Notes: a model not told the origin generated them from the letters alone. Shown: positions 13,659 to 31,986, numbered from the stretch's first letter. The stretch: DNA of 64,000 nucleotides from a virus (IMGVR_UViG_3300030419_004471:1-64000); one strand, 5' to 3'. Numbers and translations: made by a program.

Positions 13659-14207
13659 TTATTGATTATAATATAGTTCTGGATATTCTACTATAATATG
13701 TATCCCACCATCAGATAATGCTTTCTTATATGCTGGGAGTATTTTTTCTACTTTATCTAATTTGTGAATAGTAGAGTTTGTAACTATTTGTTCAAAAGCA
13801 TCTGTATAATCTGCTTTGTGTTGATGACCAGGGTCTAATGGTTTATCACTTCCCTTACCAACTCTTACAATTACATTTGGTTTCCACTCACCATCAGACA
13901 TTGCTTCCAATTTATCTAAATGATTTACTAACTGATTACAAGCGAGAATTAAAAAATCCCAACGTGGATAAAAAGTAACTACTTGATGACCAGCCATAGC
14001 CAATCCCATAGTCATTCCCATTTGGGTTTCTTCCATTACTGGTGTTTCTATCATTCTCTCTTTTGGTAATCCCTCAATGGTTTTACTCATTGGGTTACCA
14101 TAATAAACTATTTGTTGTCCGATGAATATTGTTTTATCATCTTCCATCGTAAGTTTCATTGCTTCAGTTAAAGCATCTAAATAAGGTGTGTATTCTGGGT
14201 TTGCCAT
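13659..14207 (-). CDS. Thiamine-diphosphate enzyme, pyrimidine-binding (E1-beta-like) subunit
   Basis: At 182 residues this matches a single transketolase-type pyrimidine-binding domain. It has ERMIETPVMEETQMGMTMGL (about 50-69), where a Glu in the equivalent position activates thiamine diphosphate. A typical GHQVVTFYPRWDFLILACNQ stretch follows, then a basic/Gly loop (VRVGKGSDKP). It lacks the C-terminal transketolase domain of full E1-beta chains. The complementary cofactor-binding half is encoded at 16118-16759 in the same operon, so the two probably form one split enzyme. Without lipoyl partners nearby, a two-carbon transfer or decarboxylation on a sugar or keto acid is more likely than a dehydrogenase complex. 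It shares TAATG with the upstream gene. Confidence 0.8.
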   Translation of the reverse strand: MANPEYTPYLDALTEAMKLTMEDDKTIFIGQQIVYYGNPMSKTIEGLPKERMIETPVMEETQMGMTMGLAMAGHQVVTFYPRWDFLILACNQLVNHLDKLEAMSDGEWKPNVIVRVGKGSDKPLDPGHQHKADYTDAFEQIVTNSTIHKLDKVEKILPAYKKALSDGGIHIIVEYPELYYNQ

Positions 14208-15193
14208 TATGGTTTTGAATTTGGGTTATATTCGTGTTTATGTTCTTTGTACCAATCGAGTGCATCTTTCAATCCACTCCTTAAATCGTATTTTGGTTTC
14301 CATCCTAACTTTCTCAATTTCTCATTTGATAATAATCTCTTTGGAATCATAGGGGCTTTGTTGTTTACGAATTCGATAGGATTGTCGTTATCCTCCAATT
14401 CTTTGATAAGTTCTAATACTTCCATTACAGTATGCCCTTTACCGTAACATACATTATAGATATCATATTCATCTACATTCTCTGCTACACATATGAATCC
14501 ACTTACCATATCATCAACGTGAATAACATCTCTAACTTCAGTTCCATCTCCCCAAAGTGGAATAGGATTTAAATTATCTGCTACCTTTCTAATATTAGCA
14601 GGTGTTACGTGGCATTTTTCGAAATCATACTTATCATTTGGTCCGAATGCATTTGATGGTCTTATAATTACGCATTGCATCGGGTTATGTATTTGGTTTG
14701 AGAAGAATTCACAAAGTGTTTCTCCATATCTTTTCATCCAACCTACTGCTTTATATACAGGATATATGTTTGGAGTTTGTACATTCATATCTTCAGTACA
14801 ATATTCATCCCCTACATCAGGATATGTTGTATTTGATGATATAAACATAAATTTACGAACTTTGTTTCTCCAACTTTGTTCCATTAAGTTTACATTCATC
14901 TCTACATTAGGTGTAACGTGTAATAGTGGGTTTACTTTAGTGTCTAATGCATTCGATGTGTTAGCTGCTGCATGAAATACTACATCTACATCTTTAGATA
15001 CCTTCTCACAGAAGTCTGCATCTTGTAGATTACCTATTATATGTTCCGTTTTCCATTTATAGTCATCTCTTAAGTCTCTACTATATGATGTAGTTCTGAT
15101 ATTGGTGTATCCATTATCGTATAACATCTTTACCAACCTCGAACCAATGAATCCACTAGCTCCCGTTACTAATATTTTGTCTTTTTTCTTCAT
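14207..15193 (-). CDS. NAD-dependent sugar epimerase/dehydratase (extended SDR)
   Basis: I choose ATG 15193, which gives MKKKDKILVTGASGFIGSRL; the frame could start at 15226, but that only adds unrelated residues. The Rossmann glycine motif GASGFIG is at about 10-16. The catalytic YxxxK is present in IYPVYKAVG, where a Tyr lies four residues before the Lys. Later landmarks are VIIRPSNAFGPND and GDGTEVRDVIHVDDMVSGFI, typical of extended SDR enzymes acting on nucleotide sugars. Substrate cannot be fixed from sequence; GDP- or dTDP-sugar 4-epimerases and 4,6-dehydratases share this layout. It overlaps the next SDR gene upstream by 38 bases. Confidence 0.85.
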   Translation of the reverse strand: MKKKDKILVTGASGFIGSRLVKMLYDNGYTNIRTTSYSRDLRDDYKWKTEHIIGNLQDADFCEKVSKDVDVVFHAAANTSNALDTKVNPLLHVTPNVEMNVNLMEQSWRNKVRKFMFISSNTTYPDVGDEYCTEDMNVQTPNIYPVYKAVGWMKRYGETLCEFFSNQIHNPMQCVIIRPSNAFGPNDKYDFEKCHVTPANIRKVADNLNPIPLWGDGTEVRDVIHVDDMVSGFICVAENVDEYDIYNVCYGKGHTVMEVLELIKELEDNDNPIEFVNNKAPMIPKRLLSNEKLRKLGWKPKYDLRSGLKDALDWYKEHKHEYNPNSKP

Positions 15194-16118
15194 AATGTTT
15201 ATATGTGTTTTTAATTCCTTGTTCAAATCCTAATTTTGGTAATAATCCATATTCCTCTTGTATTTTAGTACTCATTTTTCTCCTCATATCACCGTTGGGC
15301 TTAGAAGTGTCCCAATTTATGTTAATTTCTTTACCACTAACCTTTGAAACGGTCTCAATCATCCTTTTTATTGATATTTCTTCACCACTTCCTAAATTAG
15401 TTGTTATATGTAGTTTATCTTCGAAGCATTTTATACATCCATTAGCTACATCACCAGCATAAATGAAATCTCTTGTTGGTGTACCATCTCCCCATGCTTC
15501 TATTTCACCATCAGAGTCATAAATCTTTCTACAAGTAGCTCCAATAACAGTAGCACCCTCTCCAAAGTTATCATATTCTCCAAATATGTTAGCAGGTCTA
15601 ACAATTGTCCATTTATCATACCCATGCTGAACCTTATATGCTTCTAAATAAAGTTCTGGTATTCTTTTACTCCAAGATGGAAACCAATCATTGGGAGATG
15701 GTAGTGTATTCCAAACCGAATCTTCTACAAATTCTTCTGCGGGTTCATAAACTCCAACTGATGACATAAAAACTAACCAACAATTGTGTTTATGAGAATT
15801 ATCTATAATGTTTGTATTAACTTTTATCGATGGTTCTAAGAAATCTAATGGTTTTTCTTTAGCTCTTATAGGTGAACCCTTTATTCCAAATGCATTAATA
15901 ACTCCATTAAAGTTATAATGGTCAAATAATACATTAACCTCATCAGAATCTCTTAAATCCATATCTTGAAATATAAATCTATCACTATCAGGTAATTCTT
16001 TGGAATATTTTAAATCGACTCCTACAACAGAGTAATCATAATCCAATAATTTATGAACTAAATGAGTTCCAACTAACCCACTACATCCCGTAACTAATAT
16101 TCTTCCTTTTGTTCCCAT
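15156..16118 (-). CDS. GDP-fucose synthase-like SDR with altered active site
   Basis: The start is ATG 16118, overlapping the upstream stop as TAATG. The 320-residue product has GCSGLVG near the N-terminus, WGDGTPTRDFIYAGDVANG, LGSGEEISIKRMIETVSKV and WDTSKPNGDMRRKMSTKI. The last two are hallmarks of GDP-L-fucose synthases and relatives. The usual catalytic Tyr of YxxxK is missing: the aligned segment reads PSWSK near residues 147-151, followed by the expected helix (PELYLEAYKVQHG). The enzyme may be inactive, use another residue, or act as a partner for the SDR next to it. The reaction is therefore left open. Confidence 0.8.
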   Translation of the reverse strand: MGTKGRILVTGCSGLVGTHLVHKLLDYDYSVVGVDLKYSKELPDSDRFIFQDMDLRDSDEVNVLFDHYNFNGVINAFGIKGSPIRAKEKPLDFLEPSIKVNTNIIDNSHKHNCWLVFMSSVGVYEPAEEFVEDSVWNTLPSPNDWFPSWSKRIPELYLEAYKVQHGYDKWTIVRPANIFGEYDNFGEGATVIGATCRKIYDSDGEIEAWGDGTPTRDFIYAGDVANGCIKCFEDKLHITTNLGSGEEISIKRMIETVSKVSGKEININWDTSKPNGDMRRKMSTKIQEEYGLLPKLGFEQGIKNTYKHYEEKRQNISNGS

Positions 16119-16759
16119 TAAAATACCACCCATTTACCAGTACCATAATGCGGGTACTTCGATTCATACTTATAATAGATTACATCTTCTGGTATTTCTC
16201 TTTGAATACCACCCCAAGTATCTAATGTTGGTGTATTTGTTGATACACCATTATCTTCTACCACAAAATAAAGTGGTAAATCGTAATTTCTAGCATATTT
16301 GTGTACTTCATAGAAGATTCCACTCTCAAAAGCCATATCTCCTACAAAAACCCATACCTTTTCATCACTTTTTTTAAGTTTAAGTGCCTTTGCAACACCT
16401 AAAGCTATTGGTAATGTACCTGTTACGATTGCAGATGCATAAAATTTACAATCCTTTTCTACAATTGTTATAGATTTACCATCTAATATTTTCTTTTTTA
16501 ACTTTTTTGGTTCTATTCCGTGCAATAATCCGTGGTAATGAGACCTCCAAGTAGAAAAAACCCAATCCGTTGGATGTATTTTTGAAAATATTTTGATTAA
16601 TTGCTCTTCGTTACCATTTGATAAATGAACTGGACCTGTTATTTCTCCGTTTGACCAATGCGTTATGATATCATCTTCGAAATCTATCAAATCTTGCTTT
16701 GACCAATTACCTTCTGTCCATCTATCTTTGTGATAATCTAAATTATTTATCTTTCCCAT
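16118..16759 (-). CDS. Thiamine-diphosphate enzyme, cofactor-binding (E1-alpha-like) subunit
   Basis: The 213-residue product has the thiamine-diphosphate motif GD (140-141) then DN (169-170), 28 residues apart, within VFVGDMAFESG and YFVVEDNGVSTN. Upstream are STWRSHYHGLLHG and a Gly-rich stretch (AIVTGTLPIALGVAKALK), as in E1-alpha chains of 2-oxo acid dehydrogenases and related transketolase-like proteins. It is shorter than a typical E1-alpha (about 330-370 residues). The partner half is at 13659-14207, two genes downstream. Placement among sugar epimerases suggests a role in making an unusual, perhaps branched, sugar. Confidence 0.8.
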   Translation of the reverse strand: MGKINNLDYHKDRWTEGNWSKQDLIDFEDDIITHWSNGEITGPVHLSNGNEEQLIKIFSKIHPTDWVFSTWRSHYHGLLHGIEPKKLKKKILDGKSITIVEKDCKFYASAIVTGTLPIALGVAKALKLKKSDEKVWVFVGDMAFESGIFYEVHKYARNYDLPLYFVVEDNGVSTNTPTLDTWGGIQREIPEDVIYYKYESKYPHYGTGKWVVF

Positions 16760-17318
16760 TTTTATCTCTTTTAGAAATTATTGGATTAGCGCAAGGCCAT
16801 TCTATATTGAACTCTTTGCTATTCCATTTTATTGTTTGTTGTTTATCTACATCATTAAATTCACCTTCATATGCCATCTTATAATAAAATATTGAATCCT
16901 TTTCCATTACATAATGTCCATTGGCAAATCCTGGTGGAATTAATACCTGTATTCGTGTTGATGGTGATAAAATAAAGTTCTCCCACTTTCCTGTCTTTAT
17001 ATCTAATACAACTAAATATATCTTTCCACTTAGACACGATACCATCTTCCAAGTCTTATCATCATAATGCAATCCTCTAAGAACATTAAATTCAGATTTA
17101 GAGTATCTATCATGCTTAAATTGTACTCCTCTATCTCGTTCTTCTAATGGAATTAATGAATCGTAATAATCAGAATGATATGTTGTTGAAATTTCTCCTC
17201 GTGATTCGTAATATACCGATGGATTTATTACTGTAACTCCAGGTAATACTTTGGAAGTATAAAATGGAAAATCATTCCACTTTCTTTCTTTATAATATGT
17301 ACTATGTTTGATTTCCAT
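16743..17318 (-). CDS. dTDP-4-dehydrorhamnose 3,5-epimerase-like (RmlC) cupin
   Basis: A 191-residue protein of the RmlC cupin family. It contains NVLRGLHYDDKTWKMVSCLS (about 79-98), whose RGLHYD includes the catalytic His. The strand GKIYLVVLDIKTGKW follows, then STRIQVLIPPGFANGHYVM and a late IKWNSKEFNIEWPCANPIIS. These match the order seen in 3,5-epimerases, which invert C3 and/or C5 of a 4-keto-6-deoxy nucleotide sugar. The exact sugar is unknown. It overlaps both neighbours by about 17 bases. Together with the dehydratase-like SDR genes it argues for 6-deoxy sugar synthesis. Confidence 0.85.
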   Translation of the reverse strand: MEIKHSTYYKERKWNDFPFYTSKVLPGVTVINPSVYYESRGEISTTYHSDYYDSLIPLEERDRGVQFKHDRYSKSEFNVLRGLHYDDKTWKMVSCLSGKIYLVVLDIKTGKWENFILSPSTRIQVLIPPGFANGHYVMEKDSIFYYKMAYEGEFNDVDKQQTIKWNSKEFNIEWPCANPIISKRDKNGKDK

Positions 17319-18270
17319 AACCTAAAGGGAATCCGTTCCTATATTTTGAACTTAAATCCGATATTAAAATGTTATATGTTTTAATTAATTCTACTATTCC
17401 TCTATCTAAATTAAATTGTGGAGTCCACATTGTTTTTTCCAACTTTTCATTAGATACTATATAATCTCTTTTGTCAGGATCTTGATAATAATCAGAATAA
17501 GTTACTGCAAAATCTGGTATGTATTCTTGTATTTTCTCTACTAACTCTTGCTTTGATAAATTTGCGTTAGATAAACCTACATTAAATACTTCTCCACTAT
17601 ATTTTTCATATCTGTCCATCATAAATACAAATGTATATGCAACATCTCTAATATGAATATAGTTTCTTTTAAAATTCTTTTCAAAAATAGTAATGTACTT
17701 ATCAGTTAATGCTTTATATACAAATTCATTAACCAACAAATCCATTCTCATTCTTTGGGATGAACCAAAGACGGTGGCAAGTCTTAATGAAATGCCACCA
17801 ACTTTCAATACCTCTCGTTCTGCATCAATCTTCGTTATTCCATAATGAGATATTGGGTTTAGAGGACTATCTTCGGTACATATACCATCCTCTCCTATTC
17901 CGTATCCGCTATTTGTATTCGGATATAATATTTTTTGAGTTTTTGTTAGGTTATTACAAATAAATTTTATATGTTTGTAATTAACATCAGTTGCGAGTTT
18001 CTTATCTCTATCACAAGCTGGAAATCCAACTATAGCTGCTAATGGAACAATCACATCAGCTTCTTTTACATAAGGTAGTAGTTTTTTATGGTTTCTAACA
18101 TCACCATTTATAAATTCAAAGTTTGTTCTCCAAGAATGTCCTATTAATGATGTTTGATTGTACATCAAATTATCATATACTGTTAGTTTTGTTATTCCAC
18201 CATTTCTTAATAGAGTTTCAACTAATATTGAACCTAAATAACCTGCTCCTCCTGTAATTAATATCTTCAT
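17302..18270 (-). CDS. NAD-dependent epimerase/dehydratase (extended SDR)
   Basis: The 322-residue product begins MKILITGGAGYLGSILVETL, the NAD-binding motif GGAGYLG. The active-site Tyr and Lys are present in SHYGITKIDAE, and a Ser/Thr-rich strand (LYPNTNSGYGIG) stands where the catalytic Ser/Thr is expected. Later landmarks are GISLRLATVFGSSQRMRMDL and NYIHIRDVAYTFVFMMD, which fit nucleotide-sugar 4-epimerases and 4,6-dehydratases. The substrate is not assignable. The stop overlaps the 3,5-epimerase gene and the start overlaps the 133-residue gene by 4 bases (ATGA type). Confidence 0.85.
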   Translation of the reverse strand: MKILITGGAGYLGSILVETLLRNGGITKLTVYDNLMYNQTSLIGHSWRTNFEFINGDVRNHKKLLPYVKEADVIVPLAAIVGFPACDRDKKLATDVNYKHIKFICNNLTKTQKILYPNTNSGYGIGEDGICTEDSPLNPISHYGITKIDAEREVLKVGGISLRLATVFGSSQRMRMDLLVNEFVYKALTDKYITIFEKNFKRNYIHIRDVAYTFVFMMDRYEKYSGEVFNVGLSNANLSKQELVEKIQEYIPDFAVTYSDYYQDPDKRDYIVSNEKLEKTMWTPQFNLDRGIVELIKTYNILISDLSSKYRNGFPLGYGNQT

Positions 18271-18668
18271 TCTATAGTAACTTTTTCTTTTTCTTGAACT
18301 TTATCGTAAAAATCTTTTTCGAATTCGTTAAAATCTTTTATATCTTTACCATTTATTTTTATTTTAATATTTCTTTCTGAATTTAATATCCAATTTATTG
18401 TAGTTGGTGATAAATTTTCAATATTACATTCTTTATCATAATCAATTGGGAATATAAATGATTCATTTTCATCATATCCTACTTTATGTGCTTCTAAAAT
18501 ACTCCAACATTTTATATTATTGTTATCATCTTTATATAAATGATTTTTTGTTGGTTCTTCTTTAGATGCTATTGTATTTTTTTTAAACTCATTTAATAAT
18601 TTGTTTTTATCATATCCATTAAGACAATAACCATTTGGTTCTACTATTTCAAATAAAAAATCTATCAT
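18267..18668 (-). CDS. Unknown small protein in glycan operon, 133 aa
   Basis: A soluble, charged protein with early LFEIVEPNGYCLNGYDKN and a central IKCWSILEAHKVGYDENESF. No recognised domain, signal peptide or membrane segment. Its 4-base overlaps with both neighbours argue that it is translated. The strong Lys/Asn bias equals the local composition and gives no sign of recent transfer. It might be a partner of the LamG protein encoded just upstream, but this is only position. Confidence 0.6.
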   Translation of the reverse strand: MIDFLFEIVEPNGYCLNGYDKNKLLNEFKKNTIASKEEPTKNHLYKDDNNNIKCWSILEAHKVGYDENESFIFPIDYDKECNIENLSPTTINWILNSERNIKIKINGKDIKDFNEFEKDFYDKVQEKEKVTIE

Positions 18669-19402
18669 AACAATTTAACTCTTTCATTTACAACCAAATT
18701 ATATTCTAAGTGCATTGAGTTTCCTGATAAATCCCACACTTTATATTTTGTATGTTCTCTTGGGTTCATAACAAACACTGGATTTTCTAACATTTTCATA
18801 GGAACTCTTGTAGCATTTTTATTTTTCTCTAACATATCTAACACTTCCTGTTCACTGTGTATTGTTGAAAACAATCCACACTCTTTTAAATCAAAACTAC
18901 AAAATCCTATATGTTCTGGGTCAGGAATAATTCCTTCATAATAATTACAAAATCCAAAATGAAATGGCGCTGATGTATAATCGTGCAATTCTCCTTTATA
19001 TATTTGTTTTCTTCTTATAGTATCTCCAGTATATTCATTTCTAACATAAAGTTCAAACTTTTTTTGTTCTGCGTGATGATGTACTATAAAAGTAGCCTCA
19101 TCCCATATAGCTTGTCCAAGATGTTCAGTTGTCATTGTCCAAAAAGTTGGATGGTCTATACCTTCTTCTTGACTCCACCAGTCCCAACTAAAACATCCCC
19201 CATTAAGTTTAGCAAATAAACCATAATGCATTCCTGGTCTAACGAATATACCTTTATTGTATGTGTCCGATGGGTCTCTTAATAATTTAAATCTTATATA
19301 AAATGTAAAATCACCCTGCATAGATGGTCCGCTCATTACATCTGATAGTTCGTATAAACGATTTTGTTCTATGTTCCAAGGCTTTCTATAATTTATAATC
19401 AT
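18665..19402 (-). CDS. Stand-alone LamG-like (concanavalin A-like) protein, 245 aa
   Basis: The sequence is beta-rich with LamG-type landmarks: DFTFYIRFKLLRDP near 34-47, GIFVRPGMHYGLF, an IWDEATFIVHHHAEQKKFELYV strand pair, and a terminal MVFSTI/EVLDMLE-like helix followed by KYKVWDLSGNSMHLEY. WDLSGN-x-x-(H/D) is a common ending of LamG_3-like modules. Such domains bind glycans or proteins. It has no catalytic motif. The same fold appears to be inserted in the two GT7-like proteins of this operon, so this may be a free acceptor-binding module. No secretion signal seen. Confidence 0.7.
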   Translation of the reverse strand: MIINYRKPWNIEQNRLYELSDVMSGPSMQGDFTFYIRFKLLRDPSDTYNKGIFVRPGMHYGLFAKLNGGCFSWDWWSQEEGIDHPTFWTMTTEHLGQAIWDEATFIVHHHAEQKKFELYVRNEYTGDTIRRKQIYKGELHDYTSAPFHFGFCNYYEGIIPDPEHIGFCSFDLKECGLFSTIHSEQEVLDMLEKNKNATRVPMKMLENPVFVMNPREHTKYKVWDLSGNSMHLEYNLVVNERVKLL

Positions 19403-20993: not shown

Positions 20994-22436
20994 TTATAAC
21001 TTAACATTTATTAATTTTGCTTTTGGATTTATTTCTTCAACTCCAACTAACTCATATTTTAGTTGTTTAATACCATCCGATTTATAATCCCAATTACCTT
21101 GCTGCATTTCTAAAACGTATCTTCTTTCATTTGCAGCTGTAGTTTCTCCTTTAGCCCATCTATCTTGTCCTTTATCATCGGTAATTAATCCTTCATCTTT
21201 ATGAGGTAAACAAGTCATTCTACCTTCTCTTCTATGTGGTATTGGTGCTTGTGCTATCGTTATCTCATCTTCTCCTGTTATTATAGTATCTACGTTACCA
21301 TCGTTATCATTACCACTAATATCTTTAGCCTCACCCTCATTAAATTCATAATGTAATTTTAATCCGTCTGATGGGATTTCATTCATTAAATTTTTGATTT
21401 CTTCTGTTTCTAATTTTCTGTTCCATAACATAACCTTTGCTATATCACCTTTAAAGAATTTATTTACATCTCTCTCACCAACTGAAGTTGTGTATCCTAT
21501 AGTATATGGTACTGAACCATATCTTTTTAAACTACCTTCATATTTTTGTGGTGAATGAGTTCCATGCCCATGCCTTGCATCTGATTCTCTTCCATTTAAA
21601 TAAAAATGAATAAAATTATTTTCAGTATCAACTGTTAATGTAACCCAACTCCAATAATTTTCGTATCTCTTCATCCATTGATATAAAGCTTCTTTTTTAT
21701 TATTCCATAAAAGTGCAGTATATGCTCTACTATTGTTATAAGATAATCCCCAATCATATCCTGCTCTTCTTATAATTGGATATTCAGTAAATCTTCTATC
21801 ATAATCACCAACTAACCAAATTGGTACTTTGTGTTCTTGTTGATTTGCTCTAACTAAAACTGAAACAGTATGTGATTTAGTAGTAAGGTGAGCTGTATCT
21901 CTATTTGTTGGTATTGTTACTCCAGAATTTATTCCATTAAAAGAAAAGAACTCTTGATGACCTAATTTTGTTTCTTTTACATCCGCCATTCCTTCTAAAT
22001 AACATCTCCAGAATAAATCATCATCTTCCATTCCCCAATCCCAATAATCATTAGAATATCCATTTGTTTTTTCTACTTGTTCTTTAGAAAATATTACTGC
22101 TCCTCCAAAATATTCTTGATATTTTAATTGATAATCCATTTGAGATATGTTCGTTGCAATATGAATTGGATATTTTTCAGGAAAAGAATAATCACATCCT
22201 TCTTCTGGTATCATATCTATATCATGCCAAACAACATAATCACATCCTTCTTTAAATGCCCATTCAGCAGCTACATTCTTCATAGCTCCCCTATTAAAAA
22301 GTTTATCATCTACTTGATGACCAAAATACATACAATAATCTATTCCTTTAGATTCTAAATATGCTCCAACTTTTGGTACAAACTCTTTTAAGTGAGCTTC
22401 TCTATTTCTATATGGTACACAAACTCCTAATTTCAT
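20994..22436 (-). CDS. GT7-like galactosyltransferase with internal LamG domain, 480 aa
   Basis: Residues 1-160 carry the beta-1,4-galactosyltransferase signatures in order: VPYRNR (7-12), FNRG (47-50), HDIDMIP (71-77, metal site), YFGG (109-112), and YWDWGMEDDDLFWR (131-144). Residues about 180-375 are a LamG-like module, with FIHFYLNGRE, AKVMLWNRKL and a closing DGLKLHYEFNEGEAKDISGN. Then GT7 features resume: RREGRMTCLPHKDEG (402-416) and SDGIKQLKY (453-461). These match the C-terminal R-x-x-x-H-x-x-D-x-x-N and DGLnSLxY of animal beta4GalT. So the LamG seems inserted in the GT7 fold, not appended. Cytoplasmic, no signal or anchor. Sugar and acceptor unknown. Confidence 0.85.
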   Translation of the reverse strand: MKLGVCVPYRNREAHLKEFVPKVGAYLESKGIDYCMYFGHQVDDKLFNRGAMKNVAAEWAFKEGCDYVVWHDIDMIPEEGCDYSFPEKYPIHIATNISQMDYQLKYQEYFGGAVIFSKEQVEKTNGYSNDYWDWGMEDDDLFWRCYLEGMADVKETKLGHQEFFSFNGINSGVTIPTNRDTAHLTTKSHTVSVLVRANQQEHKVPIWLVGDYDRRFTEYPIIRRAGYDWGLSYNNSRAYTALLWNNKKEALYQWMKRYENYWSWVTLTVDTENNFIHFYLNGRESDARHGHGTHSPQKYEGSLKRYGSVPYTIGYTTSVGERDVNKFFKGDIAKVMLWNRKLETEEIKNLMNEIPSDGLKLHYEFNEGEAKDISGNDNDGNVDTIITGEDEITIAQAPIPHRREGRMTCLPHKDEGLITDDKGQDRWAKGETTAANERRYVLEMQQGNWDYKSDGIKQLKYELVGVEEINPKAKLINVKL

Positions 22437-22439
22437 AAT

Positions 22440-22910
22440 TTAATCTAATTCCATTTTTCGTTCAAAGTATTTTGCATCTTCAATACACTTTGGATTTTGT
22501 TTTATAGTTTGCATTGCTATCATATCTTTCATCTTGGTTGTTGACCAACCATGTGCTCTAGTAGTATATACAATCTTTGGAGGTAAGTCATCACCTGTAA
22601 AGGGTTTACCTATATAATCTTCACCCAAAATTCTTATATCCGGCTTAAAGAACTCAATTAATTTATAAAGTTCTTTTTCGGTTTGATATACATATACTTC
22701 ATCTATATATTTTATAGCCATCAACGTTCTATATCTTTCGTGTAATGGTATAACTGGTTTGTATTTTGATTTCCTATGTTCATTCGGGTCTCTCTGTAAG
22801 AATACTATAAACTTATCACAATGTTCTTTTGCTGCTTCAAAGGTATAAATGTAACCTGGATGAATCAAATCAAAATTACCCGCCGTAAATCCTACTATTT
22901 CTTTTTTCAT
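22440..22910 (-). CDS. Cytidylyltransferase-like protein (TagD/RfaE family), 156 aa
   Basis: The nucleotide-binding motif is GNFDLIHPGYIYTFEAA (about 11-27), where HPGY stands for the usual HxGH. RILGEDYIG (about 94) is the conserved (I/L)GxDY-like element, and TRAHGWSTTKMKDM near 120 fits the ending RTxGxSTTxL of glycerol-3-phosphate and related cytidylyltransferases. The length fits a single-domain enzyme (130-160 residues). It likely activates a polyol or sugar phosphate as a CDP or ADP derivative for glycan synthesis. The final His of HxGH is Tyr, so activity should not be assumed. It shares ATGA with the small gene upstream. Confidence 0.85.
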   Translation of the reverse strand: MKKEIVGFTAGNFDLIHPGYIYTFEAAKEHCDKFIVFLQRDPNEHRKSKYKPVIPLHERYRTLMAIKYIDEVYVYQTEKELYKLIEFFKPDIRILGEDYIGKPFTGDDLPPKIVYTTRAHGWSTTKMKDMIAMQTIKQNPKCIEDAKYFERKMELD

Positions 22911-23065
22911 TTTATTCCACCATTTTCAATTGTGTCTATCATAGTTATTATCTGGTCGTGCCATTTACTATAAGTGTCTCTATCGCCTTCCCAAGTTGCC
23001 TGTTCGCATCTTGTTTTATAAAAATCTCTAATTATTACTAATAATTTAACTATTACGCTCTTCAT
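22907..23065 (-). CDS. Small protein between GT7-like and cytidylyltransferase genes, 52 aa
   Basis: ATG at 23065 and TGA at 22909-22907. It overlaps the upstream GT7-like gene by 4 bases (ATGA) and the downstream cytidylyltransferase start by 4 bases (ATGA), the strongest support that it is translated. The product starts with a hydrophobic-basic helix (MKSVIVKLLVIIRDFYKTRC) and ends with a Trp/Asp-containing helix (SKWHDQIITMIDTIENGG). No recognised family. Without it the operon would have a 150-base hole. Confidence 0.65.
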   Translation of the reverse strand: MKSVIVKLLVIIRDFYKTRCEQATWEGDRDTYSKWHDQIITMIDTIENGGIK

Positions 23066-24507
23066 AATTCTGCTACAATATAGTTAACATCTACTGAACC
23101 ATTTTCTACTCCAAATTTTAATTTATTATCACTAACAGTTTTATATTTTAATGTTTCTATACCATCTCTTCTCCAATTAGTTTCACCTTTTAAAACTTCA
23201 TTGTAAAATCTTAATTGGTTTTTTCTTGTTTCGGTATAAATCCATTTGTTTTCATAAAATCCATTATCTTCGTGAAATAATAGTTTAAATTTAGATTCTC
23301 TTCTCCAAGGAACTACTTCTTCTTGATAAGCTTCTGTATGTGGGCTTTGTACTCTATTACAATAATGTACTTTTCCGTCAACTTTGTTACCGCTCAAATC
23401 ATATAATTGATGGTTGGTTGATGCTTTTGCATCGTAAGCTACTTCCAAACAATGTGGAGTTGTATAACCATCATATCCTTCACTAACACCAAGATATAAG
23501 TTATTATAAACTGCTTCAACTTGTCCTGGTTCTAATGAATGATTCCAAACTGCGAATTGATGAATCAATCCCTTAAATCCTCTACGATTATTTGCAGATT
23601 TTGGAAGTGTCTTACCTAAATACATAAATTTCTCATTGTGGTAAGGTAGTAATCTTCCTTTGAATGTTGCTTCATCGATTAATTTACCATCCTGATATAA
23701 TTTTATGAATTTATTATATTGGTCTACAACAACCATTAAAGTTGTTCTGCGTTCAGTTTGTATTGTTGATTTTAAACTTATACATTGTTTACTTGTTGTA
23801 AAAGTTTCGAATTTGTATCTTCTAAAAGAATTAAATGTAAATCCAGTATCGTAACCTGGTACTGCTACAATAGAATATTCATCTATTTCTAAATCTTCTC
23901 TACAATCTATTTTATAAGGTTCGCATTCTAATAGCATAGTGTAATTATCTAAACCAAATTTCATTGGTATTTTAACTTCACTATCCCAACCATTGAATTC
24001 TAAACCTACGGTATTCCAAGTTTTAATTGGTGTTTGTTTTTTATTTAAATCAAAGAAGTTTTCTTTACATCTAAATAATAAGTCATCATCCTCATATCCC
24101 CAGCCCCAATATTCGTTAGAGTAACCATTTATTTTATAATAGTCCATTATAGGAAATAAGGTTACTCCACCAAAATATGAATCGAATATGACTCTCCTCT
24201 CACCAACATCTGATTCGAAGTTTGTAGCAAGGTGTGTAGGTCTATTGACATATGAATAATCTACATCAATAGGTAGCATATCTACATCATGCAGGGCTAT
24301 GTAGGTACATCCTAACTTCTTTGCCTTCTCAACACCAATGTTGAGTAGTTTACCTCTATTAAATGGTTTATCATCAGCTTGTTCAGCAACAATCAATTCA
24401 TATTTGATTTTTTGCTTCTTTAAATGAGATGATATAGATGTTATAAATTGGTTAAGATGTGCCCTACGATTTCTGTAGGGAACAATTATACCAATCTTAT
24501 TTATCAT
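23062..24507 (-). CDS. GT7-like galactosyltransferase with internal LamG domain, 481 aa
   Basis: Second copy of the same architecture. GT7 motifs: VPYRNR (9-14), FNRG (49-52), HDVDMLP (73-79), SYFGGVTLF (110-118), and GWGYEDDDLLFR (135-146). The LamG-like part spans about 185-380 (FIKLYQDGKLIDEATFKGRL, IHQFAVWNHSL and the late YDLSGNKVDGKV). GT7 resumes with WRRESKFKLLFHEDNG (401-416) and RRDGIETLKY (446-455). The two proteins are clear paralogues in the catalytic parts, but their LamG modules are more diverged, which would fit different acceptors. GT7 enzymes are mainly known from animals, and the phage proteins lack the Golgi anchor. The start is ATG 24507, overlapping the 74-residue gene by 11 bases. 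Confidence 0.85.
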   Translation of the reverse strand: MINKIGIIVPYRNRRAHLNQFITSISSHLKKQKIKYELIVAEQADDKPFNRGKLLNIGVEKAKKLGCTYIALHDVDMLPIDVDYSYVNRPTHLATNFESDVGERRVIFDSYFGGVTLFPIMDYYKINGYSNEYWGWGYEDDDLLFRCKENFFDLNKKQTPIKTWNTVGLEFNGWDSEVKIPMKFGLDNYTMLLECEPYKIDCREDLEIDEYSIVAVPGYDTGFTFNSFRRYKFETFTTSKQCISLKSTIQTERRTTLMVVVDQYNKFIKLYQDGKLIDEATFKGRLLPYHNEKFMYLGKTLPKSANNRRGFKGLIHQFAVWNHSLEPGQVEAVYNNLYLGVSEGYDGYTTPHCLEVAYDAKASTNHQLYDLSGNKVDGKVHYCNRVQSPHTEAYQEEVVPWRRESKFKLLFHEDNGFYENKWIYTETRKNQLRFYNEVLKGETNWRRDGIETLKYKTVSDNKLKFGVENGSVDVNYIVAEL

Positions 24508-24725: not shown

Positions 24726-25589
24726 TTAAATTTTAATTATTCCTTTTGTTAATCTATTCCAATATTGATAATCCCAATGTTCGTTCTGAAACGGTACTTG
24801 TTGTTCCATTCCGAATGTAGGATTACTAATATCAATTCTACAATCAGATTCTCTGATTGCATTATACATCTTTTTGTATTCTTGCCAAAAAGTGTAATCT
24901 TCTTCTGTTTCTGAAACTTCTTTTAATCTTTCTAAAACAGTAGAATCCCATTTAAAGTGATGGACTTGTATAAACCCTTCACCTCTATTTGGAGGATATC
25001 TAAGAGGATGGGATGCTCCCTCTTCTCCCCAAACATCTTTGTCATCAATGATTGCATAATGTTGTCCAGATGATATTTTTATCTTTCCTTTCATTACACA
25101 AACTTTGTTTGGACAAGCACCACTAAGTGGATATCTAAAGAACCCAGCATATGGAAATAATTCCCATATATTAGAATCTTTTTTAATTACAGGAAATGTT
25201 CCATCATCTCCTATTCTATCTAAAAATCCACCTGTGATAAATTCCCAACCATTTTGTTCACACTCTTCAATCATTGTCTCAATTGGTTTTGGATAAACCT
25301 GAATCTCATCATCATCTGATACTATCCACCAATCGTTTGGTTTAGTCATCTTCACTTCATTATAAAGTTCAGTAACCTTCTCCCAATGAAACTTTGGTTC
25401 AGTAACAACTTTGTAAGGTGTTATACCTAATTCTTCTATTTGTTCCAATATACCATCATCTTCAGATTGTCTATAAACTACGATAAAAATATTATCTTTG
25501 TTTCTAACAATATTCTGATAGTATTCCAGCATATGTGGTAACATAGTGATATTGTGCCCTACTACTGTAACTAAGTTTAAGTTCTGCAT
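24726..25589 (-). CDS. Glycosyltransferase (GT2/GT92-like), about 287 aa
   Basis: I choose ATG 25589 (MQNLNLVTVVGHN). A longer frame to 25667 would overlap the methyltransferase gene by 91 bases, and its first 26 residues look unrelated. The product has an N-terminal beta strand then helix, as in GT-A enzymes, and an acidic WWIVSDDDEIQVYP near residue 93, the probable metal-binding DxD. Later FRYPLSGACPNKVCVMKG and a final HHFKW near 230 are typical of GT92-like or glycosyltransferase 2-like proteins, in which a late His helps hold the metal. Cytoplasmic. The acceptor is unknown. Confidence 0.75.
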   Translation of the reverse strand: MQNLNLVTVVGHNITMLPHMLEYYQNIVRNKDNIFIVVYRQSEDDGILEQIEELGITPYKVVTEPKFHWEKVTELYNEVKMTKPNDWWIVSDDDEIQVYPKPIETMIEECEQNGWEFITGGFLDRIGDDGTFPVIKKDSNIWELFPYAGFFRYPLSGACPNKVCVMKGKIKISSGQHYAIIDDKDVWGEEGASHPLRYPPNRGEGFIQVHHFKWDSTVLERLKEVSETEEDYTFWQEYKKMYNAIRESDCRIDISNPTFGMEQQVPFQNEHWDYQYWNRLTKGIIKI

Positions 25590-26356
25590 TTTTGTATCAA
25601 TGTTAGTCCAGTCGATGATGGTTTCTCTCTCATCGCTCCGTTGTTCCAAAAATTGAAAAGTTCCCATTCTTTGCTTTCGTTTAATTCTTTTATGAGTTTA
25701 TTAGGTCCATCAAATGGAGCATGATGTTTTTTATCTTTTACATCTTCAGTTACGATGAGTTCTTTCTCAAAAGATTCATCAGTATCGTGAATCGATATTA
25801 CACCATAATCCGATAGGATACTTGAATAAAGAGTAAAATCATTTTTAACATCATCATATGAGTGTCCTGCATCTATATGAAGATAATCTATCTTTATATC
25901 TTCCTTTACAAAGTAATTGTAAAATGCATTTTCTGTAGTATCTAGTATAACTCTACAGTCAAAGTTCTTTCGGAAAAATGAACGTTTGTCTGTCCAATCT
26001 GTATAACCTCCAACTCCGTTATCTGCATCTACTAAGATTGTTGTACCACAACCACCCCACTCCATTTGTTTTGAACCACTAAATATTTTTTGGTCATGCA
26101 AGTCTATTCTAGCTTGCGTCATTATACGAGGAATAAATCCTCCCCCACTACCCAAACATACACATACTTTTGCTCTCATATGTTGGATAATAGAATATAC
26201 TAACAAACCATCACCCAAATGTAAATCAGTTGCTCCGTGAGTCCATCTATATTTGACAGGAACAAATTCATTAAAGAGTTTACCATTTGAATCTCTTTTT
26301 TTGGTTTGATTATTTGTTAAATACTTTTGTGTTAATCCTAAATTCAATAAAGACAT
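25577..26356 (-). CDS. SAM-dependent methyltransferase (class I), 259 aa
   Basis: First gene of the glycan operon. SAM-binding landmarks: VCVCLGSGGGFIPRIM (about 68-83, motif I), a later TTILVDADNG, and DYLHIDAGHSYDDVKNDFTL (about 155-174), with GVISIHDTD after it. The last two are typical of the cephalosporin hydroxylase/methyltransferase_24 type. It probably methylates a sugar hydroxyl or amino group in the glycan made by this operon. Its end overlaps the next gene's ATG by 13 bases. The ATATTTATA motif stands 24 bases before its ATG, making this the likely operon promoter. Confidence 0.8.
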   Translation of the reverse strand: MSLLNLGLTQKYLTNNQTKKRDSNGKLFNEFVPVKYRWTHGATDLHLGDGLLVYSIIQHMRAKVCVCLGSGGGFIPRIMTQARIDLHDQKIFSGSKQMEWGGCGTTILVDADNGVGGYTDWTDKRSFFRKNFDCRVILDTTENAFYNYFVKEDIKIDYLHIDAGHSYDDVKNDFTLYSSILSDYGVISIHDTDESFEKELIVTEDVKDKKHHAPFDGPNKLIKELNESKEWELFNFWNNGAMREKPSSTGLTLIQKCRT

Positions 26357-26416: not shown

Positions 26417-27403
26417 TTAAAAAATATTGATGATTTTTTTCGCCCATCTTTTTTTGTTATTATATTTTTTCATCCAATGTTGTAAGTTTCCGAAATTATC
26501 TAAAATTTCATCAAAAGAATCTGAGGATATTGCTTTTACCATTTCATCGAATTCTTTTTTATTGGATGCTCTATATTTGTAATTTACATCTCCCCAATCA
26601 GAATGTATAATAGGTACTTTTCCATAATCAACGGCTTGGAATATTGAGTACCCAAATGGTTCATTGGTATGACAAGAATGTGATATAGTCCAATTCTTTT
26701 TCATAAACGAATCTAATATTTTTATATCCCATTGATAAAATCTAATCTTATCAAAATTATAATTACTATTTTCTACTATATTTCTCCAATCATATTGCGA
26801 ACTAAGTACACATCCTTGATGATTATCCAAATAGTGTACATTTTTACGAGATTCTATTCGAGAAGTAAATCCAATTTTATTATTTTGTAAATTTTTTAGA
26901 AATATATTGTGTTTAAATTCATAAAAGTTAGGAATTGTTATGGTATTGGAAGGATAATCTTTAAATAATTGTGAATCTGTTAATCCAACCCATACTCTTT
27001 TCTTACAATATCTCATTAAATCATTTACTGCTCCAGTTTCTACCTTTGTTTGAAATTGTCTTTTGGAATCTCCATACTTTAACATATCAGGAAGATATGC
27101 ATGAACGAAAATAGTATCCCATTTATTTCTATGTTTCCATAAATGGTCTCTATAATGATAATTGGAATGTAAGAAGTGTATTTTATCGCACCTATTAAGT
27201 AAACTTTCTGTAGTTGATGGACTTTCATCGTGAAAGTGAAAATTTGTTAATTCACTTTTAAATCCAACTGGTCGTTTTCCATCAACTAAAATATAATAAG
27301 AATCTTTTAATTTCGGTAGAACTAAATCAATAAAATGATTTACCCATATATCCGCACCACCTTGTATAATGTTTCCGAAACCGGTTGTTACTAATAAATT
27401 CAT
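26417..27403 (-). CDS. Putative GT-B glycosyltransferase, 328 aa
   Basis: The N-terminus MNLLVTTGFGNIIQGGADIW has a Gly-rich first loop as in GT4-family GT-B enzymes (a GG-x-(D/E) acceptor loop). Further on are WVGLTDSQLFKDYPSNTITIPNFYEF, NKIGFTSRIESRKNVHYLDN (about 195, the linker and donor-domain start) and SHSCHTNEPFGYSIFQAVDY (about 260). The latter matches the GT4 E-x-F-G-x-(S/T)-x-x-E-A element with Gln/Ala for the last acidic residue. The start overlaps the tail-fibre stop by 4 bases, so it may glycosylate the fibre, which is inference. Cytoplasmic. Confidence 0.75.
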   Translation of the reverse strand: MNLLVTTGFGNIIQGGADIWVNHFIDLVLPKLKDSYYILVDGKRPVGFKSELTNFHFHDESPSTTESLLNRCDKIHFLHSNYHYRDHLWKHRNKWDTIFVHAYLPDMLKYGDSKRQFQTKVETGAVNDLMRYCKKRVWVGLTDSQLFKDYPSNTITIPNFYEFKHNIFLKNLQNNKIGFTSRIESRKNVHYLDNHQGCVLSSQYDWRNIVENSNYNFDKIRFYQWDIKILDSFMKKNWTISHSCHTNEPFGYSIFQAVDYGKVPIIHSDWGDVNYKYRASNKKEFDEMVKAISSDSFDEILDNFGNLQHWMKKYNNKKRWAKKIINIF

Positions 27404-30400
27404 TCAGAACCGCTTATTTGATTTTCTAATTCTGTTACCTTTGTAGATAACTCTTGTATTGCTTTAATCATTGGTGCAATCATTTCATTATATCTTAATC
27501 CTAAGTGAGTATCTACCACTGTAAAGTTATTTATATTCCAACCCTGTGCCTCTATTTCTCTCTTATCACCAATAGCACTACCACTTTGATATATTACATT
27601 TTTAATGTATCCAGCAAAGTTATCTGTATGTACAGAGGATGATGCCAAAGATTCGGATACTTGTTGAGCGGTTAAACCATAATGAGTTCTACTACCCGTT
27701 ATAAAATTATATTTTATTGGGTTAAGGTTATTAATAAATTCTAAACCTAAATCAGAACCACTAATATTTTCTTTTTGATTTTTATCAGATGTTTGAATTG
27801 TTCCATTTGTTGCATAAACATCATCCCATCTTCTACCACTAGTACCTAAATCATCAGAATCATCAGTTGCTGGGAAAAAATAACTGGAGTTTGTTCCATA
27901 TCCTTGATTTGTAATAAAGGGACTTCCTACCTCTCTTATATTATCAAAAGAAGCTGATTGGAAATCTCCAAAGTTTGCCGTTAAATCAGCAGTATTACCG
28001 TCCACACCATCAATTTCAACTTTACCTCCTTTAACTTTTAAAAGGGTTGGTTGAGTTCCAAATCCTGTATCCAATCTTGAAACTTGAACATATGTATTTG
28101 AATCAGTTAAAAGTTGTAATCCCTTTGAAGTTAATTCAACAACATTTGATGGAATTACAATAGTTGCATCTGCCATTACAGAAGTACCACTATAAGCCGA
28201 ATATGCAAATTGGTCTGCTGTATAATTAAACGTTTGGTTTCCAGATGAATCTGTTGTTCTATTATAACCAGAATACACTCCTACTCTAGTTTCATATCTA
28301 AACTTATAAGTTCCTGCTTTAAGATATATTGATTTAGATAATTCAGCTGCATTACCACTATAGTTTGTAGTAGAAGCATTGGTAGTAGTTCCTGAATTGT
28401 AATCCCATGCTAAAGTACCACCTCCTATATCCACAGCCACATAATATGGTGAACTTGTGTAATCTCCTTTATGGTATACTGTTTTAAGAAGTACTCTAGT
28501 TTGAGTTCCTGCATTATCTCCTGTTATACCATCTGCAACAAAATATGTGTATAAATAAAACATAATTGGTTGTGAGTTATTTGACCAAGGATGTTGTTGT
28601 CCTACAAATGATGGATTATAGTTTGGATATGCAGTAGTACCAGCACTTATAGCAGCTGGTTCAGATAATGTTACTGTATGCGCTTGGCGTGCTTGTAATT
28701 CATAAGTACCATCTTGGTCTATTGTGTATGTAGATGTTGTATTTGTTTCGTTAATATATGGACCAAATTGACCACTAGCATTACTTCCAGAAGATGTTGG
28801 TAATGAACCCGATGCTGATAAACTAGCCATTGTATAATCTATACCTGAAATTGATAGATTTCCTCCAGTTGTACTTGACCACTCGGAGGCTGGTTTTAAT
28901 CTTAATTTTGTATCAAGAGTAGTAGAACCAGATTTAAATAACATTTCAGGAGTTGCAGGGTCTAATATTAAACTTGATGAAGCTGCTAATTGTGCACTTT
29001 GTAATGCACCACCCGAACCAGATTCTATTACATGCCACAATCCTACAATACCATCATCAACTGATATTGAACCAGAGATGGTTGCATCTTGAGCTGTCAT
29101 ATTACCATTCTCATCTACACTAAATTTTGGATTGTTTGCATCTGGAATATTAAGTGTACTACCAGCTATAGTTCCACCTTCTATAGATGAACCACTTACC
29201 CTACCGTGTACTAATAAAGAAGATGAACCTGCATTCCATCTTAAAAATCCATCAGTACCATTTAATTCAAAATCACCACTAGATGACATATATGTTTGCC
29301 ACGCCGATGCACTAAAGAATCCTAAATTACTTGCTCCTAAAAATAACCCATCACCATCTGAAGATGATGGTGTTATTGGTTTGTTAAGTTTACCCGAAGA
29401 ACCACTAATTGTAGGTACAGATGATGCTGTAAAATTATTAAGTGGTGTTAAATCAACATCTTCAGAACCATTGGTTAAAACAATAGCTCCTCCAATTTGT
29501 AATGTTTGTCCATCCCATCTAAGATAGTTAGAAGAATTACTACCAGTTAAGAAAAATTGGCCTGCGTTATCCATATAACTATTCCATTTAGATGCACTAT
29601 AAAATCCTAAATTAGTAGAACCTAAATATAATCCATTACTTGAGGGTGCTGGTGCTTTTGTAATAAGACCTGTTGATGGGTCTACTGAACCACTAGCCGA
29701 TGCCGATAAAGCCGCATTAGCTGCAAATGCCGAACCACTCAATACTGAATTATTTCCAGCGAGTGTAGCAGCTGCTGAACCACTTAATACCGCATTATCA
29801 TTTCCAGTTAAAGCTACTGAAGCTGATACTGAACCTGTAAGAGCTGCATTCAATACCCCTGTTTGTAATGAAGCTGTCTCAGCTTGTAATGATGCGGTCT
29901 CAGCCATTAATGATGAGGTAGCTAATTGTAATGATGCGGTCTCAGCTTGTAATGAAGCTGTCTCAGCCATTAATGATGAGGTAGCTAATCGTAAAGATGC
30001 AGTTTCTGCATTTAGTCGGGCTGTTGTACCTTCAAGCGATGCGGTAGATACCGATAATTGTGTTGTTTGGGTTTCCAACGATGCCGTAGCTGCTTCTAAT
30101 GATGCCGTAGCTACTGATAATTGTGTTGTTTGAGTGTCAACCGATGAACTAAATGTAGCTGGATTACCAAGACCTGTAATAGTTGAAATTGTCGATGTAC
30201 CAATTGAAGTCGTTGTAATATTTACAACTCCACCTGCATCTACACTTAATACATCACCAGCATCAGCTACACCCGATGCTGATACCAATACTGCTGTTTC
30301 TAAAATTCTTGATTGATTACCTTTTGTAAATGGTACACTTTGTTCTACTTTGATTGGAATGAAGTTATTATTAATATCATAAAACTCTACTCTAAAATCA

Positions 30401-31986
30401 AATTGTTCTGTTGGGTTTTTTCTTGGTATATCTACAATAGCTGTATATTCATCAGGTGAATACGAAGATTCTTCTGCATTCTTTAATGATAATCTATTAA
30501 AGTAAAATTGTCCTCCACCATTTGTTGTATTTGCTTCCGCTCTAATTTGTGTTTTACCAGTAATATCTGAAAAGAAGTTCTTTGTAGTTTTCTGAATATT
30601 ACCCAATCCATTAGAATTTCTATCATATGAACCACTAACTAAATCTAATGATTGTGTTGTAACAGTACAATTAGTGGTATTGTTGGATGAAGTTACAATT
30701 AAGAATCTTAAACTATCTCCAGCTACAGAAGCTCCTGAACCAGAGTATCTAGCGGAATATGAAAATTGATATTCTGAACCACTTACTACTTCAAACTCTC
30801 CAATAGTACCAGCTGATTCAACACTATGTGAACCACTAACCAATAAAGAGTTTATTAAATGTTCATTATGTATTTGTACACCTGATGATGTTGTATAATA
30901 AACATCTCCTACATCTGATACTATATTTTCTTTTCTTAGTTTACCATAATTAATTACTGTTCTATTGTCTACGGTAAAATCTCTTAGTAATTCTGTTGAA
31001 TCTAATTTGTTTTCTTGTACAACTTGGAAATCTCCTAAATCGTTTCTTGATTTTCTAAATATTTTTATTCTAGCTACATCACCAGTAAATGTGGCTAAGT
31101 TCTCTAATCGTATTTCTGCATATGATGCGACAACATTTGAACCAGTATTTACAGTTGCATCTTCAACCGATTCAAATTCCATTGAATAAGATGTTGCATT
31201 AAATTCATTTACTATATTGTTTACTAAATAAGGCCTTTTAACTAACATTTCATCTTCATTTAGTACTTCTAATACGGAAGATGAATATCCTATACTATCA
31301 ACAATCAACGTTGTGTTTTCATCCATTGATTGTGTAAACTTATTTCCTTCTTGTAGTTTAATTAAATATGAAGATGGTGCAGTCCAATTACTAAAATCAG
31401 AACCAGTATCAGGAGTATTTGCAATACCAATAACTGAACCTGATTTATTTAAAGTCATATTAGATTTAATCAATAAAGATTTTTCTATTTCTGTAACAGA
31501 AAATGTTGGTCTTTTAAAAAATCTAACTTGTGTGGAATTTGGTATCTTTGGATTTACTTTGAAGTTTTGTGTCCAACGAATGTTAGGCCTACCTCTGTAT
31601 TCATTAGGTACTTTCTTAACCTGTCCTTTATCATCTAAACAAGTTTCTAATTCACCTACAATTGAAATACTACCAACACCAATTGGAGTATCATCATATA
31701 TATGTACAGATAGTACTGTGGAATTACCATCTCTAAAAGTTTTTCCATATTTTTTTCCTGGCTCTACATAAATTGTATTTCCTTGAACATCTAATATTTC
31801 AAATAATACCTTAGAACCTTTTTTTAAAAAAGTACTTCCTTCAAATAAAAAGGCATTTTTTCCTCCAGTAAAAGTTTTTGGAAATTCTGTTATATTGAAA
31901 TAAGGTGAGTCTGGATTTTTATCTTCTATAAAAACATCCAGATTTTTCAGACCTAATTTGGGTGAATATTTTTTTACTATTGCCAT
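27400..31986 (-). CDS. Tail fibre with S74-type intramolecular chaperone, 1528 aa
   Basis: The long beta-rich protein has an N-terminal block (FKTFTGG-like and Ser/Gly-rich domains to about 610). Residues about 619-705 are a repetitive coiled-coil stem of 21-residue repeats (for example LATSSLMAETASLQAETASL). Two similar modules follow, each with LYLGSTNLGFYSASKW or LFLGASNLGFFSASAW. A variable part to about 1390 precedes the C-terminal chaperone: GTSGRRWDDVYATNGTIQT, then SDKNQKENI, then LNPIKYNF and HYGLTAQQV. This is the usual peptidase S74 layout, where the Ser before Asp is the expected self-cleavage residue. It is probably the host-recognition fibre. Start: ATG 31986, only 4 bases from the promoter-like motif. 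Confidence 0.85.
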   Translation of the reverse strand: MAIVKKYSPKLGLKNLDVFIEDKNPDSPYFNITEFPKTFTGGKNAFLFEGSTFLKKGSKVLFEILDVQGNTIYVEPGKKYGKTFRDGNSTVLSVHIYDDTPIGVGSISIVGELETCLDDKGQVKKVPNEYRGRPNIRWTQNFKVNPKIPNSTQVRFFKRPTFSVTEIEKSLLIKSNMTLNKSGSVIGIANTPDTGSDFSNWTAPSSYLIKLQEGNKFTQSMDENTTLIVDSIGYSSSVLEVLNEDEMLVKRPYLVNNIVNEFNATSYSMEFESVEDATVNTGSNVVASYAEIRLENLATFTGDVARIKIFRKSRNDLGDFQVVQENKLDSTELLRDFTVDNRTVINYGKLRKENIVSDVGDVYYTTSSGVQIHNEHLINSLLVSGSHSVESAGTIGEFEVVSGSEYQFSYSARYSGSGASVAGDSLRFLIVTSSNNTTNCTVTTQSLDLVSGSYDRNSNGLGNIQKTTKNFFSDITGKTQIRAEANTTNGGGQFYFNRLSLKNAEESSYSPDEYTAIVDIPRKNPTEQFDFRVEFYDINNNFIPIKVEQSVPFTKGNQSRILETAVLVSASGVADAGDVLSVDAGGVVNITTTSIGTSTISTITGLGNPATFSSSVDTQTTQLSVATASLEAATASLETQTTQLSVSTASLEGTTARLNAETASLRLATSSLMAETASLQAETASLQLATSSLMAETASLQAETASLQTGVLNAALTGSVSASVALTGNDNAVLSGSAAATLAGNNSVLSGSAFAANAALSASASGSVDPSTGLITKAPAPSSNGLYLGSTNLGFYSASKWNSYMDNAGQFFLTGSNSSNYLRWDGQTLQIGGAIVLTNGSEDVDLTPLNNFTASSVPTISGSSGKLNKPITPSSSDGDGLFLGASNLGFFSASAWQTYMSSSGDFELNGTDGFLRWNAGSSSLLVHGRVSGSSIEGGTIAGSTLNIPDANNPKFSVDENGNMTAQDATISGSISVDDGIVGLWHVIESGSGGALQSAQLAASSSLILDPATPEMLFKSGSTTLDTKLRLKPASEWSSTTGGNLSISGIDYTMASLSASGSLPTSSGSNASGQFGPYINETNTTSTYTIDQDGTYELQARQAHTVTLSEPAAISAGTTAYPNYNPSFVGQQHPWSNNSQPIMFYLYTYFVADGITGDNAGTQTRVLLKTVYHKGDYTSSPYYVAVDIGGGTLAWDYNSGTTTNASTTNYSGNAAELSKSIYLKAGTYKFRYETRVGVYSGYNRTTDSSGNQTFNYTADQFAYSAYSGTSVMADATIVIPSNVVELTSKGLQLLTDSNTYVQVSRLDTGFGTQPTLLKVKGGKVEIDGVDGNTADLTANFGDFQSASFDNIREVGSPFITNQGYGTNSSYFFPATDDSDDLGTSGRRWDDVYATNGTIQTSDKNQKENISGSDLGLEFINNLNPIKYNFITGSRTHYGLTAQQVSESLASSSVHTDNFAGYIKNVIYQSGSAIGDKREIEAQGWNINNFTVVDTHLGLRYNEMIAPMIKAIQELSTKVTELENQISGSE
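29860..30130 (-). repeat. Tandem repeats in the tail-fibre stem
   Basis: A 63-base unit, encoding 21 residues, occurs in near-perfect tandem: a 26-base identical block starts at 29901 and again at 29964. Further degenerate copies with ASLEA/ASLET/SLEGT variants extend to about 30130. It encodes the coiled-coil segment of the fibre. Copy-number change here could alter stem length. Confidence 0.85.

Follow-up and report, generated by a model that had tools for sequence, protein, structure and literature searches.

The window analysed here is a 64,000-nucleotide stretch of viral DNA (IMGVR_UViG_3300030419_004471:1-64000), taken from the start of a record of 213,601 bases. It encodes two glycosyltransferases (GTs) of family GT7 that each carry a LamG domain, P0002 (481 amino acids, 23062–24507), the upstream member of the pair, and P0001 (480 amino acids, 20994–22436), the downstream member. 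Both were delineated from open reading frames (ORFs), Pfam matches and AlphaFold2 models, and all of the genes discussed lie on the minus strand. The two proteins are 30% identical across nearly their whole length and are the only GT7C matches across the record; an original prediction, made from the sequence alone, had rightly described them as two diverged copies. The window also encodes terminase, portal and baseplate wedge proteins, and the virus is therefore taken to be a large tailed phage of the myovirus type. The closest large terminases are those of Flavobacterium phages and Microcystis phage Mel-JY01, with 56–57% identity. A Bacteroidota-type promoter pattern is not enriched (7 occurrences, 5.1 expected).

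A GT7 catalytic domain split by LamG

The order of Pfam domains in both proteins is GT7N, GT7C and Laminin_G_3, and all of these matches exceed the curated cut-offs. The GT7 N-lobe is matched by PF13733 and PF02709 with E-values of 7e-15 to 9e-22, and the Laminin_G_3 matches in the inserts score 46.0 and 38.1 bits against a cut-off of 27.6. In P0002 the N-terminal lobe (residues 1–154, 24046–24507) contains VPYRNR, HDVDM, YFGG and WGWGYEDDD, and is followed by the LamG module (residues 155–401, 23305–24045) and a C-terminal GT7 element (residues 402–481, 23065–23304) with His412, which is equivalent to a metal ligand, and DGIETLKY. P0001 has the same layout: an N-terminal lobe (residues 1–153, 21978–22436) with VPYRNR, HDIDM, YFGG and WDWGMEDDD, a LamG module (residues 154–401, 21234–21977) and a C-terminal element (residues 402–480, 20997–21233) that runs from RREGRMTCLPH to DGIKQLKY. 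The lobes were assigned by Pfam and alignment, the LamG modules by a LamG profile with boundaries from alignment with GT7 proteins lacking LamG, and the C-terminal elements by profile matches, complemented in P0001 by comparison of the junction. At about 247 residues the insert is longer than the 200 or so first proposed.

Homology of the tail, together with conserved residues and the direct junction in LamG-free relatives, confirms at the sequence level that LamG is internal to a single GT7 catalytic domain in both P0001 and P0002, as had been predicted. A hidden Markov model (HMM) trained solely on the tails of LamG-free GT7s finds P0001 residues 401–480 (33.5 bits, E 1.9e-9) and P0002 residues 402–465 (28.0 bits, E 9.1e-8). 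It scores at least 10 bits in 228 of 235 LamG-form proteins and in none of 1175 shuffled tails. The N-lobe is shared with the animal beta-1,4-galactosyltransferases (B4GALT1, B4GALT7; CAZy family GT7), with an E-value of about 1e-26 for a single sequence. In a profile built from 56 relatives, positions 3–154 match the N-lobe of human B4GALT1 (E 2e-49) and positions 428–476 match its own C-terminus colinearly (chain residues 235–281, conditional E 3.5e-5).

GT7s that lack LamG, from bacteria and from uncultured viruses (among them L110–L123, L213, L217 and L230; 208–464 amino acids), share both catalytic halves and their order, and in them the two pieces are contiguous, with an offset of -3 to 0 in most. 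In L110, for example, IFLK continues directly into RRNGRYTCLDHK, whereas in P0001 MADV is separated by 248 amino acids from RREGRMTCLPHK. Tail length is bimodal, 61–105 amino acids without LamG and more than 250 with it, and there are no complete intermediates. Among 301 ORFs containing GT7 the insertion site holds either LamG or nothing, and no other domain was found there.

The opposite arrangement, which the original prediction had set against its own, is a complete GT7 fold before residue 170 that is fused to LamG and ends in about 80 unrelated residues. GT7 coverage in a plain Pfam or PDB search does stop at residues ~2–152, as such a two-domain fusion would have it, and a profile-profile comparison of alignments A1 and A3 aligned the N-lobe alone, because local alignment cannot bridge the insert. 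This candidate is ruled out by the homology of the tail to B4GALT1 and to LamG-free GT7s, by the direct junctions and by the conservation of His412, P400, N436 and G455, and we consider it next to impossible.

Confident AlphaFold2 models were obtained with an alignment for P0001 (predicted local distance difference test 93.0, predicted template modelling score (pTM) 0.86) and P0002 (91.2 and 0.87). In these models the insert is nearly all beta, and is followed by a helix and two strands as expected of a GT7 C-terminus. Foldseek against the PDB superposes the N-lobe on GT7 structures with a root mean square deviation (rmsd) of ~1.2–2.3 Å over ~152 residues. The insert is matched separately by pentraxin and ConA-like structures, its beta-sandwich resembling pentraxin and BACOVA_03559 structures with E-values of 1e-7 to 3e-11. 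The likenesses of the LamG part in the PDB include sialidase lectin domains, pentraxins and an arabinanase.

Catalytic residues and the insertion site

The metal site of B4GALT1 consists, in bovine numbering, of Asp254, Met344 and His347 (PMC7565966), and a long flexible loop of this enzyme acts as a lid, whose closing over the donor forms the acceptor site (PMC4202792). Residues were mapped onto the bovine enzyme through alignments and its sequence. On this mapping the insert comes after the WGWGxEDDD helix and before the strand that runs to Met344 and His347, at the base of the mobile lid loop.

Both window proteins have the DxD metal motif, the WG.EDDD motif and the C-terminal element of the same domain with its H347-type histidine. 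Across 180 relatives the DxD equivalents are present in 178 (D72) and 177 (D74), the D318 equivalent in 177 and the H347 equivalent (H412) in 174, while P400, N436 and G455 of the C-terminal part occur in all 180. The C-terminal P400, N436, G455 and H412 are thus conserved on a par with the DxD and EDDD letters of the N-lobe. The animal enzymes share with those of the phage the DxD, WGWGxEDDD, the metal-ligand histidine and the C-terminal DGL..L.Y element; they differ in having no LamG and in their Met344, which is Cys or Leu in the phage enzymes. Animal beta-1,4-galactosyltransferases are type II Golgi membrane proteins.

Tyr289 in B4GALT1 favours galactose over N-acetylgalactosamine (GalNAc) as donor. 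The equivalent residue is Tyr in 175 of the 180 relatives, so the donor preference leans to UDP-galactose, which is probably the donor of both P0001 and P0002.

Distribution of the split enzyme

Searches of IMG/VR with P0002 found 24 loci. With P0001 they found at least 173 matching stretches, and with the alignment at least 503. Full-length ORFs were collected for at least 235 LamG-form proteins, nearly all from IMG/VR, and for at least 52 LamG-free GT7s. The arrangement had been called unusual, yet within its own phage group it is not rare, and the statement that GT7 is mainly an animal family does not hold, since LamG-free members turn up readily both in bacteria and in uncultured viruses. 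A suggested search of viral databases recovered the same architecture in IMG/VR. There was no full-length counterpart in INPHARED or in the PDB, nor in the predicted viral structures of BFVD among the matches listed (best query template modelling score 0.39). Among the sequenced phages available for search, no relatives of P0001, P0002, the neighbouring radical SAM protein or a LamG-free viral GT7 were found at an E-value of 1e-5, and none of the free LamG protein P0003 at 0.01. In GTDB the LamG form is found on three contigs of metagenome-assembled genomes, which we suspect to be phage contigs binned with bacteria.

In a tree computed from only the GT halves (79 rows) the LamG trait requires one change, against a mean of 26 when shuffled. 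LamG is the fastest-changing part of the protein: mean identities in the P0001 group are 0.56 for LamG, 0.65 for the C-terminal element and 0.79 for the N-lobe. The pairwise identities of LamG nevertheless correlate with those of the two GT halves at 0.91–0.92. Over all pairs the identities of the three parts correlate at 0.91–0.93, and the modules have therefore not visibly been exchanged.

We found no report of a LamG inserted in a GT7 domain in the open-access literature. Lectin-bearing transferases are already known, and LamG within GT7 appears to be a new variation on them. It extends the range of GT architectures with one in which a whole lectin-like domain lies within the catalytic domain, beside the metal site and the mobile lid.

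The glycan cassette and proposed function

The GT7-LamG pair is part of a cassette that includes a GT2, a methyltransferase, a twitch radical SAM protein and a free LamG. Upstream of P0002 are the GT2-like glycosyltransferase (24726–25667) and a Methyltransf_24 methyltransferase (25577–26356), both identified by Pfam and neighbourhood comparison, a weak GT1-like protein (26417–27403; E 0.011, below the cut-off) with relatives in 28 loci, and a tail fibre with an S74 chaperone (27400–31986, from a profile match), which directly adjoins the cassette and keeps this position in relatives. Between the two GT7 genes is a cytidylyltransferase-like gene of the RfaE domain II or TagD type (22440–22910, from a profile match), with a related gene in 18 loci. 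Downstream of P0001 are the twitch-domain radical SAM protein (NF033640, 19407–20969, E 5e-102), P0003, a LamG protein that stands alone and is akin to the modules in the GT7s (18665–19402; LamG HMM E 1.6e-7, no Pfam match), and sugar-nucleotide genes identified by profile matches (13659–18270): three NAD epimerase/dehydratases, a dTDP-sugar isomerase and a split enzyme dependent on thiamine pyrophosphate.

A P0002-type gene precedes a P0001-type gene in 102 of 104 loci. The two mostly abut or overlap by a few bases; in the window they are separated by the cytidylyltransferase-like gene. In 29 loci (e.g. L030, L032, L060, L084 and L237) the pair has a third, strongly diverged GT7-LamG copy upstream of it, with ~25–29% identity, and some of these copies have lost the DxD or EDDD letters. 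Of 116 viral loci with LamG-form genes, 94 have the twitch radical SAM gene nearby and 88 the GT2 gene, whereas neither occurs near any of 38 LamG-free viral GT7s. In many related loci the radical SAM gene is followed by a free LamG ORF akin to P0003. The radical SAM protein, a near-constant partner of the pair, gave no tblastn match at an E-value of 1e-5 across 50,697 phage records.

We consider it fairly likely that, taken as a whole, these genes encode split GT7 enzymes with an acceptor-holding LamG, which add consecutive sugars within a phage glycan cassette. P0001 and P0002 would be soluble, metal-dependent (Mn) enzymes of the beta-1,4-galactosyltransferase type. LamG is a plausible acceptor-binding domain, and would hold or position a glycan acceptor beside the lid while the lid closes. 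The two enzymes would add consecutive sugars, galactose being favoured, to one glycan built by the fibre-linked cassette, with its GT2, methyltransferase, twitch radical SAM, free LamG and variable sugar-nucleotide genes. This glycan would decorate the phage tail fibre or virion, which we favour, or the host surface.

Lectin domains are known from other GT families, where those of the polypeptide GalNAc-transferases and GnT-IVa (MGAT4A) are C-terminal appendages of other folds and are not known to be inserted in the catalytic domain. Like the phage enzymes these proteins combine a GT-A transferase with a carbohydrate-binding type of domain, and their lectin domain tunes the activity of the transferase (PMC4432651, PMC9296478). 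The phage proteins offer a concrete, testable system for how acceptor recognition can be built into a GT-A enzyme. A GT7-type enzyme and LamG also occur together in Aureococcus anophagefferens virus, a eukaryotic giant virus, where a beta-1,4-galactosyltransferase and several LamG proteins are listed as separate proteins (PMC7507832).

Several observations weigh against this interpretation. In the GT-only tree the deep branches have weak support, and among them are the branches that divide LamG from LamG-free forms. The structural check called for by the original prediction yielded good models and a matching N-lobe, but Foldseek against the PDB never aligned both GT halves jointly at low rmsd; their joint placement is suggested by pTM, secondary structure and sequence homology. 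The link to the tail fibre could reflect shared synteny of late genes instead of function. Finally, the Met344 metal ligand is not kept, being Cys409 in P0001, Leu in P0002 and Cys, Ser or Leu among relatives. This position also varies in LamG-free bacterial GT7s, and a Met344-type ligand is therefore a feature of B4GALT1 and no requirement of the whole family. The missing ligand, and the few diverged third copies without DxD or EDDD letters, would fit proteins that no longer work as transferases and serve as lectins or in a structural role. We think this very unlikely, since both window proteins and ~93–99% of the 180 sequences keep the equivalents of DxD, W314, D318 and H347.

LamG and pentraxin folds often oligomerise, and LamG could instead be mainly an assembly module, the inserted and free LamGs packing against each other or against a virion protein to bring the two GT7s and the free LamG into one complex, with no sugar bound. 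The two or three GT7-LamG genes side by side, and the free LamG of the same family downstream in many loci, are compatible with this. Variable ligands would account for a fast-changing LamG no less well than a fixed interface would, and we regard an assembly role as rather unlikely.

An S74 match occurs in 16 LamG-form records. In 14 of these a fibre lies upstream at 2.8–7.1 kb, on the same strand; in the other two the fibre is 17.5 kb upstream in one and there is none upstream nearby in the other. In the window, 2.9 kb separate the end of the fibre gene from P0002, which lies downstream of it. A terminase was found in 17 LamG-form records, and in 16 of them it is on the same strand, 14–35 kb downstream. 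A serious rival, and one we hold to be quite possible, is that the cassette acts on the host cell surface late in infection, remodelling polysaccharide for superinfection exclusion or receptor masking. The epimerases, dTDP-sugar isomerase and cytidylyltransferase do recall O-antigen and capsule loci. The conserved arrangement of fibre, cassette and terminase genes, in one run on the same strand, fits virion assembly, and no transmembrane segment or lipid-carrier enzyme was recognised, in a search for them that was not systematic. In many uncultured phages a conserved glycan cassette adjoins the tail-fibre gene, which bears on the question of what phage glycosylation genes decorate.

A bolder form of the favoured interpretation is a phage-specific machine, in which an acceptor lectin wired into the lid of a galactosyltransferase couples acceptor capture to donor closure, and a modified tail-fibre glycan is made by two or three such enzymes, acting one after another, together with the twitch radical SAM protein. 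We put this forward as a tentative and somewhat doubtful proposal.

The S74 tail fibre itself (27400–31986) bears repeats rich in Ser, Thr and Ala, such as ATSSLMAETASLQAETASLQ, and these repeats are a possible O-glycosylation substrate of the adjoining cassette. Amid the sugar epimerases, two short genes (13659–14207 and 16118–16759) resemble the halves of a thiamine pyrophosphate-dependent enzyme (Transket_pyr and E1_dh), whose product may be a branched or modified sugar. A further cytidylyltransferase-like domain is found with an HD domain in a 1202-residue protein (6960–10568). Among the tail genes, a 1975-residue protein (45613–51540) contains a weak third LamG match (47197–47601; E 1.4e-5, below the curated cut-off).

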